A stretch of 64,000 nucleotides of DNA from positions 682,001 through 746,000 of the forward strand of contig NC_015707.1 of assembly GCF_000217815.1 (NCBI RefSeq). Reading direction: 5' to 3'. Below the pieces are notes generated by a model. It was not told where the DNA came from, did not search any database, and was given only the letters and a program-made list of their open reading frames with translations. The stretch comes from Pseudothermotoga thermarum DSM 5069. GTDB taxonomy: Bacteria; Thermotogota; Thermotogae; Thermotogales; DSM-5069. Position numbers and translations under genes: made by a program. How positions within the stretch are numbered: position 1 is the first letter of the stretch; every line of letters starts with the position of its first letter. Positions 18,975 to 29,712 of the stretch are shown piece after piece.

Positions 18975-21011
18975 ATGAAAAACATAGACGTTGTGGTTGC
19001 AATTTTGATAGTTTCGATAGTGTTTTTAATGATTCTGCCTTTACCAGCCTTCGTGCTGGATTTTTTCCAATTGCTGAACATTTCCATCTCCATGGTCATA
19101 TTGTTTTCAACCATGTACGTCAAACATGCCCTTGATATATCCTCATTTCCCACCTTGCTCCTCATAGTCACGCTTTTCAGACTTGGGCTAAACGTTGCCT
19201 CCACGAGATTGATTCTACTTGAAGGTGAGAAATTTCAAGGAAAAGTTATAAGAACCTTTGGAGAGTTTGTTGTTAAGGGTGATTACGTCGTCGGTTTGAT
19301 AGTGTTCATAATTTTGGTTATAATTCAGTTCATCGTCATCACCAGGGGTGCTGAAAGAATTGCCGAAGTCGCTGCAAGGTTTACGCTCGATGCAATGCCA
19401 GGAAAACAGATGAGTGTGGATGCAGATTTGAACGCAGGCCTTATAACTGAAGAAGAAGCAAGAAAAAGAAGGGATCTCATCAGAAGAGAGGCAGACTTTT
19501 ATGGAGCAATGGATGGTGCCACAAAGTTTGTGCGAGGCGATGCGATAGCAAGCATAATAATCGTTTTTGTCAACATTCTTGGGGGTCTTTTGATAGGAAT
19601 TTTGAAACATGGTTTAAGCGTAGCCGAAGCCGCTAGAGTTTATGCCTTGTTGACCGTCGGAGATGGTTTGGTAACGCAGATTCCTGCCCTTTTGGTTTCA
19701 ACTGCGACTGGTATTTTAGTTTCCAGAGCGGCTTCAAAGGAAAACCTTGGGCAGGATTTGGTAAGGGAGCTTACGGCAGAAAGAAAGGTACTTTTCATCA
19801 GTGGAGTAATGTTGATTTTTCTTGGAATTGCCACACCATTGCCTTTCACAAGCACCATAATTGGCTTAGCTTTTGTGTTGCTTGCAATTTACACAACCAG
19901 ATTGGCGCCACAACCTGAAAAAACACCGGCGGTTGCGGCTCCAACCGTTGTAAAGCCAATATTGACGACACCTCAAGAGGTAGCAGATGTTTTGCAGACT
20001 GATACAGTGGAAATCGAAATAGGATACGGTTTGTTGCCGCTTGCCGATCCATCTCAAGGTGGAGATCTTTTGGAAAGAATCACCATGATAAGAAAGCAAA
20101 TTGCCTTCGATTTGGGGTTGGTTCTTTCACCTATAAGGGTGCGTGACAGTGTTTTACTTAAGCCGAACGAGTACGTCATAAAAATACGCGGTGCAGAAGT
20201 TTCAAGATATGAACTAGTTCCAAACAGGTTGCTTGCAATCAACCCCGGTACTGCTTCTCAGAAAATAGCTGGAATACCAACGAAAGAGCCTGCCTTTGGA
20301 ATGCAAGCTTTTTGGATAGAACCAGCGAGAAAAGATGAGGCTACAAAGTTAGGTTATACAGTTGTGGATCCTCCGACTGTTTTTGCAACTCATTTGACGG
20401 AAACTCTCAAACGTAATGCGGCAGATTTGCTTGGTACAAGAGAATTCAACCTGTTGCTCGATGGTTTAAGGGAAAAGTTCCCGCAACTTGTCAGTGACCT
20501 TATACCATCTGTTCTAAAAGCAGGAGATGTTAAAAAGATTTTGCAAAGACTTTTGGCTGAACAAGTTTCCATCAGGAATCTTCCCTTGATTTTCGAAACT
20601 CTTCTTGAATACGGTGAAAAGAGTACAGATATAGTGTATTTGACTGAGCAAGTTAGAAGGGCTTTAAAGCGGCAAATTGCACAATCGGTTCAAGCCGAGG
20701 ATGGAAAGATCCACGCCGTTGGGCTTGACCATGGACTTGAAAAAAGATTGGCCGAATCAATCCAAGATGTGGCTGGTGAAAGAAAAATAGTTTTAAACCC
20801 GCAGATTTTAAGGGAGATAATGGAAAGTATATCCAAGCAGCTTGAACTGCTTATGAGAAAAGGTTATATGCCGGTTGTGGTGTGCTCTGGTGCCATCAGA
20901 CCGTACTTGGCTTCAACGGTGAGAAAGTTTTTGCCAAACGTCCCTGTTATCGCTTATGAAGAAATTCCTGAAGACATTACCTTGCAAGTGGAAGGTGTGG
21001 TTAAACTGTGA
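18975..21011 (+). CDS. flhA: Flagellar type III export apparatus protein FlhA
   Basis: 678 residues. The N-terminal membrane domain contains the FHIPEP signature region (FPTLLLIVTLFRLGLNVASTRLIL, and EVAARFTLDAMPGKQMSVDADLNAG with the conserved charged residues of the proton channel). The C-terminal cytoplasmic ring domain docks export chaperones and substrates. ATG 18975 after AAAGGGAG. The start of flhF overlaps its stop by 4 nt. Confidence 0.97.
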   Translation: MKNIDVVVAILIVSIVFLMILPLPAFVLDFFQLLNISISMVILFSTMYVKHALDISSFPTLLLIVTLFRLGLNVASTRLILLEGEKFQGKVIRTFGEFVVKGDYVVGLIVFIILVIIQFIVITRGAERIAEVAARFTLDAMPGKQMSVDADLNAGLITEEEARKRRDLIRREADFYGAMDGATKFVRGDAIASIIIVFVNILGGLLIGILKHGLSVAEAARVYALLTVGDGLVTQIPALLVSTATGILVSRAASKENLGQDLVRELTAERKVLFISGVMLIFLGIATPLPFTSTIIGLAFVLLAIYTTRLAPQPEKTPAVAAPTVVKPILTTPQEVADVLQTDTVEIEIGYGLLPLADPSQGGDLLERITMIRKQIAFDLGLVLSPIRVRDSVLLKPNEYVIKIRGAEVSRYELVPNRLLAINPGTASQKIAGIPTKEPAFGMQAFWIEPARKDEATKLGYTVVDPPTVFATHLTETLKRNAADLLGTREFNLLLDGLREKFPQLVSDLIPSVLKAGDVKKILQRLLAEQVSIRNLPLIFETLLEYGEKSTDIVYLTEQVRRALKRQIAQSVQAEDGKIHAVGLDHGLEKRLAESIQDVAGERKIVLNPQILREIMESISKQLELLMRKGYMPVVVCSGAIRPYLASTVRKFLPNVPVIAYEEIPEDITLQVEGVVKL

Positions 21012-22117
21012 AGATGAAGAAATACATTGTAACGGATATCAGGCAGGCTTTAGAGCAAATAAGGAAAGATCTTGGCGAGGACGCCATAATCTTGAGCACG
21101 CGAAGTTTTAGAAAAGGTGGTTTTTTCGGCATAGGAGGTAAAAAGTTTCTTGAGGTAACAGCCGTTGTGGATGAAAAGGAAGAGAAAAAGAAAGAAGACT
21201 TGGAAGTTTACAAATTGCAGGAATTACTTGTAAAAAGCAAGGAAAAAAGATATGAGGAAGAACTTACCGAAATAAAACAGATGTTGAAAGAAATGAAAAC
21301 AATGGTTCTTTCGATCAAGCGAGAAGACTTGTCAGAGGATTTGAAGGCACTTTCGAAAGCTTTTGAAATTCAAGATATAGATTCTGAAATTTCCAATAAG
21401 ATTTTGGAGTACATCAGGTTAAGCTACGGTAATCTCAAAGTCGATGAAACCATTCTTGAAAAGTTGACCGATTACTTTCAACCATTTTTGAAAACAGAAA
21501 TTCCCATCCTTCAAGGTGTTGTTATGTTTGTAGGTCCAACCGGGGTTGGAAAGACAACAACGCTTGCAAAAATAGCTGCAAGGTTGAAACTTGTCGAGAA
21601 AAAGAATGTTGCGATTCTCACCCTGGATACATATCGAATTGCCGCGGCGGAGCAATTGAAAATCTATGCAAATATCATGGATATTCCCATGAGAGTTGCT
21701 TACACACCTATGGAGGCAAAGATCGAACTGGAAGCCATGAGATCGTTTGATGTGGTTTTAATCGATACCGCTGGAAGAAGCCCTAACAACGAAATACAGA
21801 TAAGTGAACTTAAAGCCCTTGCTGAAACTATTTCTCCCAACATTTGTTTTCTCGTGCTAGCCATGAATTACAAATATTCGGACATAAAGGACATGGTCAA
21901 AAGATTCTCGGTGGCGAAATTTTCACACGTGATACTCACGAAAATGGATGAGACCAAATCTTACGGTCATCTTTTGAACGTGCCATACACAACTGGTGTG
22001 CCATTGGCCTACGTCACCAACGGCCAAAGGGTCCCTGAGGATATAATTGAAGCAAACAGAATAGAACTTTCACATCTTTTGGCAAAAGAGGTGCTGCGCT
22101 CTGTCAGATCAAGCTGA
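21008..22117 (+). CDS. flhF: SRP-type GTPase FlhF, flagellar placement factor
   Basis: 369-residue SIMIBI GTPase, homologous to Ffh and FtsY, that controls where and how many flagella are built. N-terminal basic B domain (KKYIVTDIRQALEQIRKDLGEDA), then NG domain with G1 GPTGVGKTTTL, DTYRIAAAEQL, G3 DTAGRS and G4 TKMDE. GTG 21008 overlaps the flhA stop. Its activator FlhG is encoded directly after. Confidence 0.97.
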   Translation: MKMKKYIVTDIRQALEQIRKDLGEDAIILSTRSFRKGGFFGIGGKKFLEVTAVVDEKEEKKKEDLEVYKLQELLVKSKEKRYEEELTEIKQMLKEMKTMVLSIKREDLSEDLKALSKAFEIQDIDSEISNKILEYIRLSYGNLKVDETILEKLTDYFQPFLKTEIPILQGVVMFVGPTGVGKTTTLAKIAARLKLVEKKNVAILTLDTYRIAAAEQLKIYANIMDIPMRVAYTPMEAKIELEAMRSFDVVLIDTAGRSPNNEIQISELKALAETISPNICFLVLAMNYKYSDIKDMVKRFSVAKFSHVILTKMDETKSYGHLLNVPYTTGVPLAYVTNGQRVPEDIIEANRIELSHLLAKEVLRSVRSS

Positions 22118-22928
22118 GGGTTTGCGGGCCGACGGCACAAAGATAATAAGTGTAACGAGTGGAAAAGGCGGGGTTGGAAAAACGGTTATAGCCGTAAATC
22201 TTGCCATTGTTTTGGCTCAAAGGGGTCATAGTGTTTTGCTCTTCGATGCGGATGTTGGATTTGCCAACGCGGAAATATTGATGGGAATAGTACCAAAATA
22301 CACGATAAAGGATTTTCTTAGAGGTAAAATCTCATTGGAAGAGACTATTTTTAGAACACCATTTCAGGTTGATTTGATAAGTTCCGGCATGGATGTGGAA
22401 GACATAATCACCTTCAACCTTCAAACAAAAAGCGATTTGTACAATGAATTTCAACGCATCGTAAGCAGGTACGAATACATAGTTTTTGATTTTCCACCTG
22501 GTTTCAACGAGAAATTGGAGGAATTTTATGTTCAATCCGATCATCTTGTTTTAGTGACAACAACGGAACCCACATCGCTTGTGAATGCTTACACCTTTTT
22601 GAAGATCATGACCATCAAAGGTTTGGATCCTGAAAGTTTTCACCTTGTGGTTAATATGGTTAAAGATATGCGCGACGGAAGAAGGATAGCGGACAAGTTC
22701 ATCGCAGTAGTTGAAAAGTTCACTGGCGTACTGATAACTTCTGCACATGTTGTGAAAAACGATTCAACGGTTAAAGAAAGTGTCACACACCAAGTGCCTT
22801 TTGTTGTAAGCAAAGCAAATTCTCAGCCGGTGTTTGCGATCCACGGTATAGCGGATACCATAACCAAAAAAGCTGTTCAAAGAAAACTCAGCTTTTTTGA
22901 CAGACTAAGAATGATCTTTGGAGGATAA
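22101..22928 (+). CDS. flhG: MinD-like ATPase FlhG (YlxH), flagellar number regulator
   Basis: Deviant-Walker ATPase with TSGKGGVGKT, FDADVGFAN and FDFPPGFNE; it stimulates FlhF GTPase activity and limits flagella. Established for the family: the activating N-terminal motif is DQAxxLR. Here in-frame codons before the nominal TTG 22122 read SDQAEGLR, so the true start must lie upstream. The only well-placed codon is CTG 22101, 7 nt after GAGGTG (22088-22093), giving a 275-residue protein that overlaps flhF by 17 nt. A start at TTG 22122 would delete the activation motif. Confidence 0.93.
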   Translation: MSDQAEGLRADGTKIISVTSGKGGVGKTVIAVNLAIVLAQRGHSVLLFDADVGFANAEILMGIVPKYTIKDFLRGKISLEETIFRTPFQVDLISSGMDVEDIITFNLQTKSDLYNEFQRIVSRYEYIVFDFPPGFNEKLEEFYVQSDHLVLVTTTEPTSLVNAYTFLKIMTIKGLDPESFHLVVNMVKDMRDGRRIADKFIAVVEKFTGVLITSAHVVKNDSTVKESVTHQVPFVVSKANSQPVFAIHGIADTITKKAVQRKLSFFDRLRMIFGG

Positions 22929-22942
22929 AGGGTGATTTTTTC

Positions 22943-23626
22943 ATGACAGAACACGCCATGCCCGTTGAGGCAAGTTCCGTACTCAGACCTGGTATGCCTT
23001 TGATTATAAAGTACATCGACAAAAAGGGTGATGAATGGGATTTCAAAAGCACGATACACGATATAAACTTTGAACGAGGAATAATGAAAATTGGTATGCC
23101 TAGTTATAAGGGACGTTTTGTTCCAATTGCAGCTGGAGAACCCATTCATGTCACGGCCGTAGCTGAAAAAGTCGTTTACACTTTCGACAGCAGAGTGATA
23201 AATTATGGCAGAGACGAGCAAAACTTTTTGGTGATGTACATAGCGTTCCCAAGGACAGTCAAACGCGTTCAAAGAAGAAGGTACGTCAGAATACCGTTGG
23301 TTCTAGAAGGAACGTTTAAAATACCTGGGCAAGAGGAAGTTTATAGATTTGTGACTAAAGATTTCAGTGCCGGTGGCATTTTGATGTGTACAAAGCAGCT
23401 TTTACAGGTAGGTCAACCTATTTTGATAACCCTTGACCTTGGCTCAATCAAACTTGAAGATCAAAAAGCCCAAGTGGTTAGATACGTGGGAAAAAATGAT
23501 GTCACTGGGCTGCACGAATACGGTGTACAATTCTTAGAGGTACCGCCGCAACTTGAGAAAGCCTTGGTTGTTTACGTTTTCCAACAAGAATTGAAGATGA
23601 GGAAAGCTTCAGGAAGGGAGGATTGA
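22943..23626 (+). CDS. PilZ domain protein, YcgR-like flagellar brake
   Basis: 227 residues. The N-terminal half resembles the YcgR N-domain and the C-terminal half is a PilZ domain with both cyclic di-GMP signatures: RRRYVRIP (RxxxR) near residue 115 and DFSAGG (DxSxxG) about 35 residues later. By analogy it would bind c-di-GMP and slow flagellar rotation. It sits between flhG and cheC in the motility operon. ATG 22943 has a weak site (AAAGGGTGA). Confidence 0.9.
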   Translation: MTEHAMPVEASSVLRPGMPLIIKYIDKKGDEWDFKSTIHDINFERGIMKIGMPSYKGRFVPIAAGEPIHVTAVAEKVVYTFDSRVINYGRDEQNFLVMYIAFPRTVKRVQRRRYVRIPLVLEGTFKIPGQEEVYRFVTKDFSAGGILMCTKQLLQVGQPILITLDLGSIKLEDQKAQVVRYVGKNDVTGLHEYGVQFLEVPPQLEKALVVYVFQQELKMRKASGRED

Positions 23627-23627
23627 C

Positions 23628-24236
23628 ATGGAACTCACGGAAAGACAATTGGACCTTTTGAAAGAGATAGGGAATATAGGAACTGGGAACGCGGCAACTG
23701 CCTTGTCAACTTTGGTCAACAAGAAGGTGGAAATATCGGTTCCAAGCGCTCAAGTTGTGCCAATATCAAAACTTCTTTTCATGTTTGAAAATCCGGAAGA
23801 TATTGTTGTAGGAGTAAGGATGAGCGTGTCTGGGGATTTGAAAATGGATGTACTTTTGATCCTGGATAGGCCGACCACAAGAAGGATAATAACAGATTTG
23901 CTTGGTAATCCTTGTGAAGATATAACCCAGCTTGACGAGTTAACCGCATCGGCTTTAAAGGAAATAGGAAATATAATGTGTGGTTCTTACATAACCGCGC
24001 TTGCAGAATTCACGGAATTCTACCTTGACCCAACTCCCCCAGAGCTTACTATAGACATGCTTGCAGCTATAGTTGCCGAAGCAGTTTTGGAAAGGTATTA
24101 TGAATTCGAAGAAAACGTTGTAGTAGTTGAAACGCAAATAAGTATGGAAGGCGTGCAATCGATAACTTCTTACATGTTCTTGATTCCCGGAAAGGATTGC
24201 CTTGATAAGATCTTCAAGAAGGTGGGAATAGCATGA
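23628..24236 (+). CDS. cheC: CheY-P phosphatase CheC
   Basis: 202 residues, the CheC/CheX/FliY fold with both pseudo-symmetric active sites: LLKEIGNIGTGNAATAL with E13/N16 and a second copy ALKEIGNIMCGSYITAL. It dephosphorylates CheY-P in adaptation, stimulated by CheD. ATG 23628 has a GGGAGG site. The cheD gene overlaps its stop codon, matching the known physical CheC-CheD complex (well studied in T. maritima). Confidence 0.97.
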   Translation: MELTERQLDLLKEIGNIGTGNAATALSTLVNKKVEISVPSAQVVPISKLLFMFENPEDIVVGVRMSVSGDLKMDVLLILDRPTTRRIITDLLGNPCEDITQLDELTASALKEIGNIMCGSYITALAEFTEFYLDPTPPELTIDMLAAIVAEAVLERYYEFEENVVVVETQISMEGVQSITSYMFLIPGKDCLDKIFKKVGIA

Positions 24237-24715
24237 CAAGGAAAGTGATAATTGGTATAGGCGAAATAGCAATAGAAAGTAATCCTTGTGTGCTTGTGAC
24301 ACTTGGACTTGGGTCTTGCGTTGGCGTGTGCATGAGAGACCCTGTTGCTAAAATTGGAGGAATGGCTCATGTAATGCTTCCAGAAAGTCCTGGTAAGGAT
24401 GTCAAAACACCCGGAAAGTATGCGGATACCGCTGTGGACTATTTGGTGGAGAAACTCGTCGAAAGGGGAGCTGTGAAATCCAGACTGGAAGCAAAGATAG
24501 CCGGAGGAGCTTCGATGTTTGAGTCAGGTTCAATGAACATCGGCCAAAGAAACGTTGAGGCAGTTAAAAATCGATTGAAATTTCACGGTATACCGTTGAA
24601 AGCCGAGGACACAGGTGGCAACCGTGCAAGGAGTATTGAATACAACATAGAGACTGGTAAGCTTCTTATCAGAAAAGTTGGAGGAGGAGAAACTGTTCAA
24701 ATCATCGAAATATAA
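24233..24715 (+). CDS. cheD: Chemoreceptor glutamine deamidase CheD
   Basis: 160 residues. It deamidates glutamines on methyl-accepting chemoreceptors and binds CheC. Catalytic Cys29 (LGLGSCVGVCM) and His46 (GGMAHVMLP) are visible. The ATG overlaps the cheC stop (ATGA). It completes the chemotaxis adaptation pair. Confidence 0.97.
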   Translation: MTRKVIIGIGEIAIESNPCVLVTLGLGSCVGVCMRDPVAKIGGMAHVMLPESPGKDVKTPGKYADTAVDYLVEKLVERGAVKSRLEAKIAGGASMFESGSMNIGQRNVEAVKNRLKFHGIPLKAEDTGGNRARSIEYNIETGKLLIRKVGGGETVQIIEI

Positions 24716-24733: not shown

Positions 24734-25471
24734 GTGTTCAAGCAAGACGAAGAGAAGATAATCAAAGAAATGCTGCCAATGGTGAAGATGATAGCACTTG
24801 ATTTGAAAAACAACCTTCCAAAAAACGTTGAACTGGACGATTTGATACAGGAAGGAGTTCTCGCTTTAATTGCGGCAATAAGAAGGTACGACCCGAAGAA
24901 AGGTGTAAACATCCACAGATATGCAATAAAAAGAGTCAAGGGGGCAATGTACGATTATCTCAGAAAGATAGATTGGATGCCAAGAAATCTTAGAAGAAAC
25001 ATAAAAGAAGTGGAAAAGGCCATTTACGAACTTGAGCCAAGCTTGGGGCGTTTTCCAACGATTGAGGAAATTTCGATGTACACTGGTTTGACGACAGCGG
25101 AAGTGAAAAGAGCCTTAGATGAAATGGTTAGAAAACAGTTTCTAATGCTTGATCAATATTTGTACGACGAGGAAACGTTTTTGGATCAACTTAAAGACGA
25201 CGACGAACCGTTTAAGCAAGCTCAGAGGGAAATTTTGCTTGAAGATCTTACCCAAGCTATATCGAGGCTTGATCCAAAGGAACAACTGGTTCTTTCCTTG
25301 AGATTTGAACAAGATCTTTCTTTGAAAGAAATAGGTCTAATAATAGGAGCAAGTGAATCGCGAGTTTCGCAAATAATTTCTTCGGCGTTGATAAAGATAA
25401 AGAACTTTTTGATGGGTGGAGAGCATGATAACTCCGGTGGATCTTCAGGTAGTGATAGTGAGGGGAAATGA
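24734..25471 (+). CDS. fliA: RNA polymerase sigma factor for flagellar operons (sigma-28, FliA)
   Basis: 245-residue sigma-70 family factor. Region 2 (LDDLIQEGVLALIAAIRRYDPKKG, RYAIKRVKGAMYDYLRKIDW), region 3 and a region 4 helix-turn-helix (LSLKEIGLIIGASESRVSQI) match FliA/SigD. GTG start 24734. It directs late flagellar and chemotaxis genes; no clear sigma-28 promoter was recognised in this window. The next small gene begins inside its 3' end. Confidence 0.96.
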   Translation: MFKQDEEKIIKEMLPMVKMIALDLKNNLPKNVELDDLIQEGVLALIAAIRRYDPKKGVNIHRYAIKRVKGAMYDYLRKIDWMPRNLRRNIKEVEKAIYELEPSLGRFPTIEEISMYTGLTTAEVKRALDEMVRKQFLMLDQYLYDEETFLDQLKDDDEPFKQAQREILLEDLTQAISRLDPKEQLVLSLRFEQDLSLKEIGLIIGASESRVSQIISSALIKIKNFLMGGEHDNSGGSSGSDSEGK

Positions 25472-25730
25472 ATTATCACAAAATGCTGCGCAGGTTTTGA
25501 ATGCGCATTCTGTTGTGCTACAACTTTTACAATCGGAATTGATTAGAAAATCTCAACAAGAGACAAAACAAGTTAATCCTGAAAATAAAATCGAAGACAA
25601 GCTGGTTAAATCCTCCGTTGAAGAGGAAGCAAAAAGAGGCAGTTATCAGATGAACTACAGCCGTCGCCAAAAAATCATCGAACCTTTGAAAGAAGAAAGC
25701 AAAGGCTGCATTTTGGATGTGAGACTATGA
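25425..25730 (+). CDS. Small protein of unknown function encoded after fliA
   Basis: 101 residues, no signal or membrane segment. The N-terminal third is MITPVDLQVVIVRGNEL plus a helical, glutamine-rich stretch; the rest is strongly charged (many K/E) and probably disordered or coiled. ATG 25425 has GGAG at 25418-25421 and lies within the fliA 3' end (47-nt overlap). From memory, short PxDLQ-starting proteins occur near fliA in other flagellated bacteria, but no function is known to me. Tight packing in the motility operon suggests a flagellar role. Confidence 0.75.
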   Translation: MITPVDLQVVIVRGNELSQNAAQVLNAHSVVLQLLQSELIRKSQQETKQVNPENKIEDKLVKSSVEEEAKRGSYQMNYSRRQKIIEPLKEESKGCILDVRL

Positions 25731-26218
25731 TTGGTTACATTTCCACCAAAAAGATAGATGAAAAATACGTTGGAGGGCTTTTGATCGTTGATCAAGCCGG
25801 AATTCCTTTGGAATTCAAATATACAGAGCCTGTGATTCCAACTCAGCTACAAAAAATACTTTACGGAAAGTCCCTCGAAACGTATCTCTACGTTGAAGTC
25901 ATAGGAAAAAATTTGCTTAAAAAAGCCGAGAACAAGTGTGAATTTTATTTCACCGATACCCCCATATTAGTTGATTGTGCAGAAAATGTTTTCTTCATCA
26001 CTTACCATCCCTCAATTGTTGAAGAGGTTCAAAAAATTTCTGCCGAGGAATGTGTAATTCCAGCTCAAAGTGGTTCAATAAAAGTCTCGGCGGCGAAAGA
26101 GATCAAGCAGGAAACTTTGGAAAAATTGGTAAAAATGCTTGAAGAAATCGATGTCATGGAACCTTTTCAAAGGCTTCAGAAGGCGCTTGAATACGTATGC
26201 AGATCATCCGCTGGTTGA
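25727..26218 (+). CDS. Conserved protein of unknown function in the motility operon
   Basis: 163 residues, soluble, ATGA overlap with the preceding gene. The notable block is GYISTKKIDEKYVGGLLIVD, then GIPLEFKYTEPVIPTQLQ and KILYGKSLETYLYVEVIG. I recall a similar pattern (GGxxVVDxxGxPLEF ... LYG) in uncharacterised proteins of Planctomycetes and others, so it is likely a real domain family. The second half has an amphipathic helical end (LEKLVKMLEEIDVMEPF). The pairing with the two neighbours suggests a small complex. Function not assigned. Confidence 0.75.
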   Translation: MIGYISTKKIDEKYVGGLLIVDQAGIPLEFKYTEPVIPTQLQKILYGKSLETYLYVEVIGKNLLKKAENKCEFYFTDTPILVDCAENVFFITYHPSIVEEVQKISAEECVIPAQSGSIKVSAAKEIKQETLEKLVKMLEEIDVMEPFQRLQKALEYVCRSSAG

Positions 26219-26901
26219 TTGAAAGCTTGAAAATGGAACTTGGCCTTTTGAAGGTAAATACGGTTGATTTACATGTGGATTTGCCAGATGTGCACGTTGA
26301 GAAAACCCAGGCAAACGTTATTGATCGAACTGAACGAATTGAGAATCAAGTTAGGTTTTTGGACGAAAGCTTCCAACTGGTCGTTAAAAAATTTGCAAAG
26401 CCGGAAAATGACTTACGCATCGTTTCCTTTGAACTTGGTTCTAACAACGTGGCGGTAAAAGAAATAAAACTTTCCACCACAATGGTTAGCTGTTTACTTT
26501 TCAACGACAAAAGATTTTCCAGCGCTGTTAAAGAGGTAAAAGGTTTAAGTTGTACAAGTGTTTTTTCCATCCAACCACTGCACTGTAACATTTCGAGTCG
26601 AGATTTGCCGGTGCTCAAAGTAGCAAGGTTTAAGCCGATTGCTTTACCAAAGGATGAAAGAGTGATCAAAGCGATTGTGAAAGTGATTTCAAAAGAAAAA
26701 ATTCCACAGCAATTCAAGTTTGTCGGATTTTACAAATCTGTACCAATTCAAAGCGCAAAGAAAGTTCTTACGATAAACGATGAGTTGCTAATCGAATTGA
26801 GTGATAAGACATCTAAAAGGATGGATGTTCTAGTTTTTAAAAATGGCCAAGAGTACAGGTTTGTGGTTTTCTCACTCAAGGAACTGATGAAGAATCTTTA
26901 A
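26197..26901 (+). CDS. Protein of unknown function, last gene of the motility operon
   Basis: 234 residues, no signal peptide or membrane helix, rich in beta-type alternating hydrophobics. An internal positively charged stretch (KVARFKPIALPKDERVIKAI) is visible; no family recognised. It overlaps the preceding gene by 22 nt, and ATG 26233 is an alternative start because the ribosome site at 26197 is weak. Its last 30 nt overlap the end of the convergent mfd gene, with no terminator between. Confidence 0.65.
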   Translation: MQIIRWLIESLKMELGLLKVNTVDLHVDLPDVHVEKTQANVIDRTERIENQVRFLDESFQLVVKKFAKPENDLRIVSFELGSNNVAVKEIKLSTTMVSCLLFNDKRFSSAVKEVKGLSCTSVFSIQPLHCNISSRDLPVLKVARFKPIALPKDERVIKAIVKVISKEKIPQQFKFVGFYKSVPIQSAKKVLTINDELLIELSDKTSKRMDVLVFKNGQEYRFVVFSLKELMKNL

Positions 26902-29712
26902 AACTTCCTGTGGTTCAACGCCGTAGATCAGTAGGCAATCTTCTTTTTCGTTGTAAATGTGCTTTTTGTTCAATTTTATTTGTTTTAAAGCCGATGCACC
27001 CGTTATTTTCAAAGTTTCGCCATCGTAGCTTATCTTTTTCAAGCCAACTTTATGTGACAAAATGCGTATTTTAAACAAATCCAGCAAGAGGTTTACCTGC
27101 TGTGGTATTTTACCAAATCTATCCAAAAGTTCGTTTCTTACTTCTTCAATTTCCTTCAAATCTCTGCATGCTGCAAGTTTCCTATAAAGTCTCATTCTTT
27201 CCATCGGATTTGCAACGTAACTTTCTGGTATCACAAGTTCACCAGGTATGCCCTCTATTTCCACATCGATTCTGTTTTCTTCCTCTAGAACAGGTTCATA
27301 AGTTTGCAACGATAAAGCTTGCTTGATTTCACGATTTAATATTTCAAGGTAAAGGCTCAGTCCAACTGAATTGATGTTACCATGCTGTTCAAAACCGAAG
27401 ATAGAACCAATACCTCTCATTTGCATGTCCAACATGGCGAGTTGCAAACCACTACCAGCCCCTTTAAAAGCTTCCAAAGCTTTGAGCCTGTATTTTGCGC
27501 TTGGACTTGGTTCAACATCGTACAAAAAATAGGCAAACCCCCTTTTGTCACTTCTTCCAACTCTTCCTCTTAGCTGATAAAGTTGTGCTATTCCGTATCT
27601 GTAAGAGTCGTCTACTATCAAAGTGTTGGCTGTTGGTACGTCCACACCGTTTTCTATTATCGATGTGCAAACTATCATGTCAACTTCGTGCTCGTAGAAC
27701 ATCCTAACTGCTTTTGAAAGTTTTGAACTGCTCATTTGACCATGTGCCATGACCATCTTGACTTCTGGAATGAGTTCTTGAAGATGTCTGAATATCCTTT
27801 CCAAATCGTTTACTCTGTTGTGAACGTAGATCACTTGGCCACCGCGGTTGACTTCTCTAAGAACAGCACTTCTGACCAAAAGATCGTTGTACTTACCCAC
27901 GTAGGTTATAACTGGAAGTCTTCCTTGAGGAGGAGTGTTCAAAACACTCAAATCCTTCATGCCAGACAAAGCCATGTGCAGGGTTCTTGGAATTGGGGTA
28001 GCACTCATTGAAATTATATTCACGTTCAACCTCATCTTTTTGAATTTTTCCTTCTGCTCAACTCCGAAATTTTGTTCTTCATCTATTATCACAAGACCAA
28101 GGTCGAAAAATTTCACCTTGTCTGAAAGCAAAGAATGAGTTCCAACTATGACGTCTATTTTCCCACTTTTAAGGTCAAAAAGGATTTGCTTCCTTTCCTT
28201 TTGACTTATCGTTCTATCGAGAAGCTTTACTGAGACGCTGAATTTTTCCATTCTGGATTTAAAAGTTTCGTAGTGCTGCCTGGCCAAAACCGTCGTTGGT
28301 GCAAGAACTGCAACTTGCTTACCGGAAACAACGCAACGAAATGCCGCTCGCAAAGCTACCTCTGTTTTACCAAAGCCTGCATCGCCACAGATCAAACGAT
28401 CTGCAGGTTTATCACTTGCAAGATCTTCAAGAACTTCTTCGATGGCTTTCATTTGGTCTTCGGTTTCCACGTATGGGAAAGTTTTTGCGAATTCGGTTTC
28501 CAAATCTGGGTCACCTTTCAAACTCAAACCTGTCACTTGTTGCCTTTTAAAGTAAAGTTCCACAAGTTCTTGTATTTTTTCACGAACATCCTTTTTAACC
28601 TTTTCCAACCTTTTGTTCCAAGTAGAGAGACGAATTTTGTCTATTTTGACCTTACCTTTGTCGCCTATGTACTTTTGAACTCGATCCAACCTTTCGACGG
28701 GAACGTAAACCGTTGAATCCTCATATTTGATGCAAAGGTACTCTTTTGTCCCAAATACGTTTGAAATTCTTCTCACACCTTCAAAGATTCCTATTCCATA
28801 ATCGACATGAACAACGTAATCTCCTTCGACAAGTTCTTCCTCGTCAACCACTGGGATTTGACTAACTGCGGAGGTTTGGATTTTGACCGTTTTCAATTTG
28901 TCAAGATCTGCTTCGACGAAAATAGGATTTGATATTTTTTCTAGGATTTGGGAAAGCGGCACTTGCGAATAAAGCTGGTATTCCTCCATTTGTTGATCGG
29001 TTAGTATTTCTCTTATTTCCTTTTCGCGCTTTACATACTCCTCCTGGCACTTTTTGTAATTTACAAAAACAACCTCAAATTTGGCGTAATCAAGTATGGT
29101 GGAATTTGACATTGCCTTGCCGGGGATTGTATCAAGATCGTGGTTTTCGCTGATATATTCTCTGACTGGTAAAATTGTGACTTCCTTGATCGAATCTATC
29201 GATCTTTGTGTTGCAGGATCGAAGATTCTAATGCTCTCTACCTTTCTTCCAAAAAATTCCACGCGCACTGGGATGTTTTGAAGTGGCCCGAAAAAATCCA
29301 GTATGTCACCTCTGATCGCGTATTCACCACCACTTCTAACAAGGAAAGTTCTTTCGTATCCCATTAAGTACAACAGTTTTTCGAAGTCGATTTCTTTCAA
29401 CTCTTGCCCGATGGTTATTTGAAAACAGTGTTTTCTCAACACCTCAGGTGAGAGAGTTTTTCTTGTGATTGCGTGCAAAGTTGAAACAACTTTTGCCTTT
29501 TGGAAAAACAATATTTTCCAAAGAGTTTTGATTCTGGCAGAACGAACAAAGAAAGAGACGTCAACATTCTCAAAAGGAAAAACATCGTGGGATGGAAAGT
29601 AATCAAAACCAAAGTGGTCAGCAAGTTTTTGTGCATCGTATTCGGTTGGTACAACTATGAGAATGCAATCTGACTGAAGATCTTCAAAAAGCTTATCCAG
29701 CGTCAATTTCAT
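26872..29712 (-). CDS. mfd: Transcription-repair coupling factor Mfd (short form)
   Basis: DNA translocase that removes RNA polymerase stalled at lesions and recruits UvrA. Seen: shortened UvrB-like N-terminal module (GGEYAIRGDILDFFG), RNA polymerase interaction domain starting near residue 290 (VEGDYVVHVDYGIGIFEG), superfamily 2 helicase motifs (GDAGFGKTE near residue 442, DEEQNFG, SATPIPRTL, RGRVGRS) and the C-terminal TRCF domain. At 946 residues it is about 200 shorter than E. coli Mfd, the missing part being in the N-terminal region; the Thermotoga protein is also short. ATG 29712 overlaps the preceding gene by 20 nt. Confidence 0.96.
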   Translation of the reverse strand: MKLTLDKLFEDLQSDCILIVVPTEYDAQKLADHFGFDYFPSHDVFPFENVDVSFFVRSARIKTLWKILFFQKAKVVSTLHAITRKTLSPEVLRKHCFQITIGQELKEIDFEKLLYLMGYERTFLVRSGGEYAIRGDILDFFGPLQNIPVRVEFFGRKVESIRIFDPATQRSIDSIKEVTILPVREYISENHDLDTIPGKAMSNSTILDYAKFEVVFVNYKKCQEEYVKREKEIREILTDQQMEEYQLYSQVPLSQILEKISNPIFVEADLDKLKTVKIQTSAVSQIPVVDEEELVEGDYVVHVDYGIGIFEGVRRISNVFGTKEYLCIKYEDSTVYVPVERLDRVQKYIGDKGKVKIDKIRLSTWNKRLEKVKKDVREKIQELVELYFKRQQVTGLSLKGDPDLETEFAKTFPYVETEDQMKAIEEVLEDLASDKPADRLICGDAGFGKTEVALRAAFRCVVSGKQVAVLAPTTVLARQHYETFKSRMEKFSVSVKLLDRTISQKERKQILFDLKSGKIDVIVGTHSLLSDKVKFFDLGLVIIDEEQNFGVEQKEKFKKMRLNVNIISMSATPIPRTLHMALSGMKDLSVLNTPPQGRLPVITYVGKYNDLLVRSAVLREVNRGGQVIYVHNRVNDLERIFRHLQELIPEVKMVMAHGQMSSSKLSKAVRMFYEHEVDMIVCTSIIENGVDVPTANTLIVDDSYRYGIAQLYQLRGRVGRSDKRGFAYFLYDVEPSPSAKYRLKALEAFKGAGSGLQLAMLDMQMRGIGSIFGFEQHGNINSVGLSLYLEILNREIKQALSLQTYEPVLEEENRIDVEIEGIPGELVIPESYVANPMERMRLYRKLAACRDLKEIEEVRNELLDRFGKIPQQVNLLLDLFKIRILSHKVGLKKISYDGETLKITGASALKQIKLNKKHIYNEKEDCLLIYGVEPQEVLKILHQFLE

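Follow-up and report, generated by a model that had tools for sequence, protein, structure and literature searches.

A conserved three-gene module that accompanies flagella in four phyla and encodes a predicted RNase H-like protein without the beta-1 carboxylate

Introduction

Lists of flagellar parts derive mostly from Escherichia coli and Bacillus subtilis. In B. subtilis, the gene for the accessory protein SwrB follows sigD. SwrB activates the flagellar export apparatus of this bacterium and raises the activity of sigma-D, the level of which is not raised (PMC4526659). FipA, which has a coiled region and a DUF2802 domain, binds FlhF (PMC11620751).

Here we describe three genes, orfA, orfB and orfC, that follow the flagellar sigma factor gene fliA in Pseudothermotoga thermarum DSM 5069. 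Literature searches returned nothing on these genes, none of them has a covering family in Pfam or NCBIfam, and they are not named among the genes searched for in the accessible part of a survey of actinobacterial flagella (PMC10746217).

Results

Three overlapping genes follow fliA

The window analyzed is a stretch of 64,000 nucleotides of contig NC_015707.1, and for its flhA and flhF, the matching loci also match TIGR01398 and TIGR03499. The features of the locus, in window coordinates, are as follows.

21008-24715, plus strand: genes that we take to be flhF, flhG, pilZ (YcgR-like), cheC and cheD, upstream in the operon of fliA; order shared with relatives
24734-25471, plus strand: fliA, flagellar sigma factor sigma-28 (context); TIGR02479 FliA_WhiG, E 7.1e-69, above cut-off
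25425-25730, plus strand: orfA, 101 aa; alignment of relatives
25727-26218, plus strand: orfB, 163 aa; AlphaFold2 (AF2) model, fold matches, residue conservation
26197-26901, plus strand: orfC, 234 aa; AF2 model, profile comparison of the C-terminal domain
26872-29712, minus strand: presumably mfd (context), convergent; ORF listing, homolog beside orfC in many relatives

The ORF listing bore out the initial annotation, which had described three open reading frames of 101, 163 and 234 codons after fliA, overlapping by 47, 4 and 22 nt. For orfA, the ATG at 25425 is the supported start rather than the GTG at 25416, since relatives share the N-terminus M[IV].P[VI][DE]. The 3' end of orfC overlaps the convergent gene by 30 nt (26872-26901).

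The module is conserved across Thermotogota

We examined 61 Thermotogota genomes, comprising the window's own and its relatives, and orfB was present in 51. The order cheC-cheD-fliA-orfA-orfB-orfC was found in nearly all loci read, often with mfd next. Homologs of orfA that the first search had missed lay in the same gap and had the same C-terminus, and orfC followed orfB even where that search had missed it (weakly in L047). Such conservation of all three proteins at one position across the phylum far exceeds that of chance open frames.

When orfB was scored against FliA matches above cut-off, 50 genomes had both, 4 had FliA only, 1 had orfB only and 6 had neither (Fisher p 2.5e-5; this and the p-values below overstate independence, as the sampled genomes are related). 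The sole orfB-only genome, G001, is incomplete, with orfB at a contig end and no FliA match above cut-off. Three genomes (G046, G050 and G052) retain orfA between fliA and mfd and have neither orfB nor orfC, and therefore the trio is not always together. In G048 (L046 3810-8529), orfB and orfC lie away from fliA, in the order REC-FapA fusion, 192-aa gene, orfB, a presumably SIR2-like gene and orfC.

The module recurs with flagella in other phyla

Loci of the Thermoleophilia class (Actinomycetota) read flhA-flhF-(pilZ)-small gene-orfA-orfB-orfC, and their orfA C-termini are LDVTA, LIDVFA or LLDVRA. The small unnamed gene upstream of orfA (L206 4874-5206, L208 4981-5394, L209 5327-5686, L136 6306-6680) has apparently hydrophobic stretches, and the one copy tested had no Pfam match. 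A housekeeping-type sigma-70 gene comes after the module in two loci (L195 2-862, L136 3085-4113), overlapping orfC in one of them. Among 99 genomes sampled, FlhA was found in 12 and was absent from 87, and all seven genomes with a strong orfB match have FlhA (Fisher p 5e-8); in five of these seven, orfB lies 2-3.3 kb behind flhA.

In Armatimonadota, an orfA-like ORF ending in LIDLRA or LIDIRV precedes orfB and orfC, and a SwrB/FipA-like gene follows orfC in each of the 12 loci that extend far enough. The module mostly stands apart from the main flagellar operon, and one Armatimonadia genome reads flhA-flhF-flhG-fliA-orfA-orfB. An FlhA-like match was detected in 60 of 101 genomes, including 14 of the 14 that carry the module (p 6e-4), two of them by FlhA fragments at contig ends.

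In Vampirovibrionia-type Cyanobacteria, all 14 genomes found have a sigma gene immediately before orfB, and orfC downstream wherever the sequence allows. In four loci, genes for a PAS kinase and a response regulator come after sigma-orfB-orfC, and in several loci the sigma gene and orfB are too close together to accommodate orfA.

All module genomes tested in these three groups have FlhA, and no complete module-bearing genome without flagella was seen in the samples; the only exception to the restriction of the module to flagellated genomes is the incomplete G001. Several flagellated genomes have no orfB (five in the Thermoleophilia-class sample and about 40 in Armatimonadota), indicating that orfB is not essential. 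FlhF was above cut-off in 14 of 14 Armatimonadota module genomes. A requirement of the module for FlhF was nevertheless rejected, because about half of the flagellated module-free Armatimonadota genomes tested also have FlhF and Vampirovibrionia show no clear FlhF.

Taken together, the module is old, swimming bacteria from four phyla or more carry it, and its flagellar association is well supported. The fixed operon position, the co-occurrence with FliA or FlhA and the recurrence in four phyla lend support to the initial proposal that the three genes are co-produced and have a flagellar role.

Flagellar orfB is separate from a sister clade next to SNF2 ATPases

A degenerate pattern was built on the orfB block, with the Thermotogota codon excluded at one position. 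It matched at least 118 genome contig stretches, and among the matches listed these belonged, by their record titles, mostly to Planctomycetota and also to Chloroflexota, Cyanobacteria, Armatimonadota, Acidobacteria, Actinomycetota and others. The Thermotogota orfB profile matched in 118 of the 118 loci among those listed (E<1e-5). The block GGLLIVD...PLEFKY...LYGKSLE, attributed in the initial annotation to uncharacterised proteins of other phyla, is thus indeed found there.

Among the listed loci with enough sequence, 77 of 96 have an SNF2 ATPase gene next, in the same direction; exceptions with a sigma gene or orfC instead are the Vampirovibrionia-type Cyanobacteria and Thermoleophilia-type Actinomycetota. 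The orfB-type gene immediately precedes the ATPase gene in L107 (2242-4658) and in some 77 loci within L057-L174, the two often overlapping by 4 nt, and in L113 the ATPase additionally bears an Mrr nuclease domain. This unnamed pairing of orfB with SNF2 occurs frequently in Planctomycetota and in other phyla. SNF2-type copies do not track FlhA, which G169, G208 and G256 lack.

In a tree of 175 orfB sequences, the flagellar and SNF2 types split with no misplaced tips (local support 0.905), where shuffled labels misplace at least 62; the SNF2 side also takes in loci that end before the neighbouring gene, and a few in which no SNF2 gene is close by. SNF2-type copies from Armatimonadota group on the SNF2 side, and orfB type tracks gene context rather than organism. 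Most of the wider family does lie outside motility loci, beside SNF2 ATPases, which is one half of what the initial annotation set as counting against its proposal, but those members form the separate clade.

No orfB relatives were present in the viral contigs or plasmids searched. A defence function is unsupported: PADLOC has no anti-phage model matching orfB of either type, and the SNF2 partner matches only the helicase parts of larger models.

orfB has a predicted nuclease-type fold without the beta-1 carboxylate

Endonuclease V, Piwi and NurA form a fold group that binds nucleic acids and in which the first catalytic carboxylate sits on beta-1. The AlphaFold2 model of orfB, built from an alignment of 32 sequences, had a mean pLDDT of 96.1, and both Foldseek and VIA-align grouped it with these RNase H-like proteins. 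In VIA-align, the predicted model best matched endonuclease V (Z 11.5, 157 residues, rmsd 3.8) and also matched NurA (Z 9.6, 155 residues, rmsd 4.0); the best 28 rows were endonuclease V, Piwi or an A. fulgidus protein of unknown function. We predict with high confidence that orfB has an RNase H-like fold of this group, a similarity that is no demonstration of function. By sequence, orfB had no Pfam match to endonuclease V (PF04493), and hhalign against endonuclease V of the same phylum gave E 0.018 over the second half only, too weak for proof of homology. The orfB profile also hit Crov588 in the PDB (E 4e-4), but this hit was made up of seven weak pieces, none individually significant, and was rejected as a repeat artefact.

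The beta-1 strand of orfB reads [IL][GA][YF]L and is virtually acid-free in 103 sequences. At positions 1-5, matched by secondary structure, the acid fraction is at most 0.02 in both clades; no conserved carboxylate occurs at positions 1-8 in either, and the acidic position on beta-4 is not conserved. The residues that are conserved are P27, E29, F30, Q42, Y46, G47, E145, P146 and R149, within the block P.EFKYTEP..P...Q.ILYG and a C-terminal EPF.R. Since beta-1 has no carboxylate, orfB is probably not a nuclease and would represent the nuclease fold minus its chemistry.

orfA and orfC are basic, and orfB is acidic

Median pI values of the flagellar-type proteins are 4.9 for orfB, 9.4 for orfC and 9.4 for orfA. 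orfA has a conserved N-terminus (M..P.[DE]), a variable middle and the C-terminus LDVRL, and a similar motif closes the ORF that immediately precedes orfB in Armatimonadota and Thermoleophilia. The AF2 model of orfC is confident only in an N-terminal helix and a C-terminal domain (about 141-234), with a low-confidence middle. orfC had no recurrent Pfam family and no sequence relative in the PDB, its structural matches were weak throughout (best Z 4.1), and no relation to the N-terminal region of the SNF2 proteins was detectable.

Profile comparison of the orfC C-terminal domain gave E 2e-5 for Thermotogota-Armatimonadota, 6e-9 for Vampirovibrionia-Armatimonadota and 1e-6 for Armatimonadota-Thermoleophilia (two of the six Thermoleophilia sequences are probably wrong frames), each score beating all 60 column shuffles. 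The direct Thermotogota-Vampirovibrionia link is weak alone (E 0.027). These profiles indicate homology of the domain across all four groups, bridged by Armatimonadota.

Discussion

We propose that the flagellar operon has an ancient accessory module, orfA-orfB-orfC, whose products form a cytoplasmic complex, with orfB as a non-catalytic adaptor that binds orfC, a reading whose chances we judge evenly balanced. The opposite charges, the confinement of confident orfC structure to its ends and the fixed orfB-orfC adjacency suggest that acidic orfB would bind basic, largely unstructured orfC and might bind the C-terminal tail of orfA too. Because the neighbours in four phyla are FliA, FlhF, PilZ, SwrB/FipA-like proteins and FapA, we place the putative orfB-orfC complex at flagellar assembly or an assembly checkpoint, where it would share a process with SwrB/FipA-type proteins and FlhF and feed into sigma-28-dependent late gene expression. 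The two effects of SwrB, on export and on sigma-D activity, provide a precedent for one accessory with both. As some flagellated lineages have neither orfB nor orfC, the module would tune flagella rather than enable them.

The same neighbourhoods could also point to the sigma factor itself. orfB-orfC might bind FliA or RNA polymerase and adjust late flagellar transcription, with a parallel in the SNF2 partner of the sister clade, which might act on DNA or polymerase. A FliA/WhiG sigma gene does lie a short way upstream of orfB in Thermotogota, in one Armatimonadia genome and in all Vampirovibrionia-type genomes found, two Thermoleophilia loci have a housekeeping-type sigma gene after the module, SNF2 ATPases adjoin the sister clade and the fold group binds nucleic acids. 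However, orfB is acidic, the module follows flhA-flhF and not a sigma gene in five Thermoleophilia-class loci, and most Armatimonadota loci have no sigma gene within reach, so that we regard this explanation as rather unlikely.

We give still less credence to the genes being passengers, held in place by the layout of the operon while serving functions that have nothing to do with flagella: the mostly non-flagellar wider orfB family and the usual separation of the Armatimonadota module from flagellar genes would fit, but co-occurrence with FlhA persists even without linkage of the genes, and the unlinked Armatimonadota module is itself followed by a flagellar-type accessory gene. The best fold match of orfB would suggest an active endonuclease V/NurA-type nuclease that is in the operon by chance; this reading is highly improbable given beta-1 and beta-4 strands without the conserved acids, in either clade for beta-1, and a separate endonuclease V encoded in the genome.

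More speculatively, and in our estimation improbably, orfB proteins would be widespread catalytically dead RNase H-fold adaptors, one clade working alongside an SNF2 translocase, with DNA or RNA polymerase as the target, and the other recruited with orfC, coupling transcription to flagellar assembly. That four phyla share a conserved module with an enzyme-derived fold points to a step in building or controlling flagella that has gone unrecognised, and the module connects that step to the equally unnamed orfB-SNF2 pair common in Planctomycetota.

Among described systems, endonuclease V (PF04493), Piwi and NurA resemble the predicted orfB in overall fold; orfB differs from them in the absent beta-1 carboxylate, in having no reliable sequence similarity and in its operon context. 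FapA (PF03961) is flagellar-associated and, in a single Thermotogota genome (L046), encoded two genes before orfB, with no sequence relation to the module detected. SwrB (DUF6115) and FipA (DUF2802) are products of flagellar accessory genes and are membrane-bound. orfA, orfB and orfC had no Pfam match to either family; the DUF6115/DUF2802-type match belongs to the fourth gene, the one that follows the module in Armatimonadota. The place after the sigma gene, taken by SwrB in B. subtilis, is taken here by orfA.
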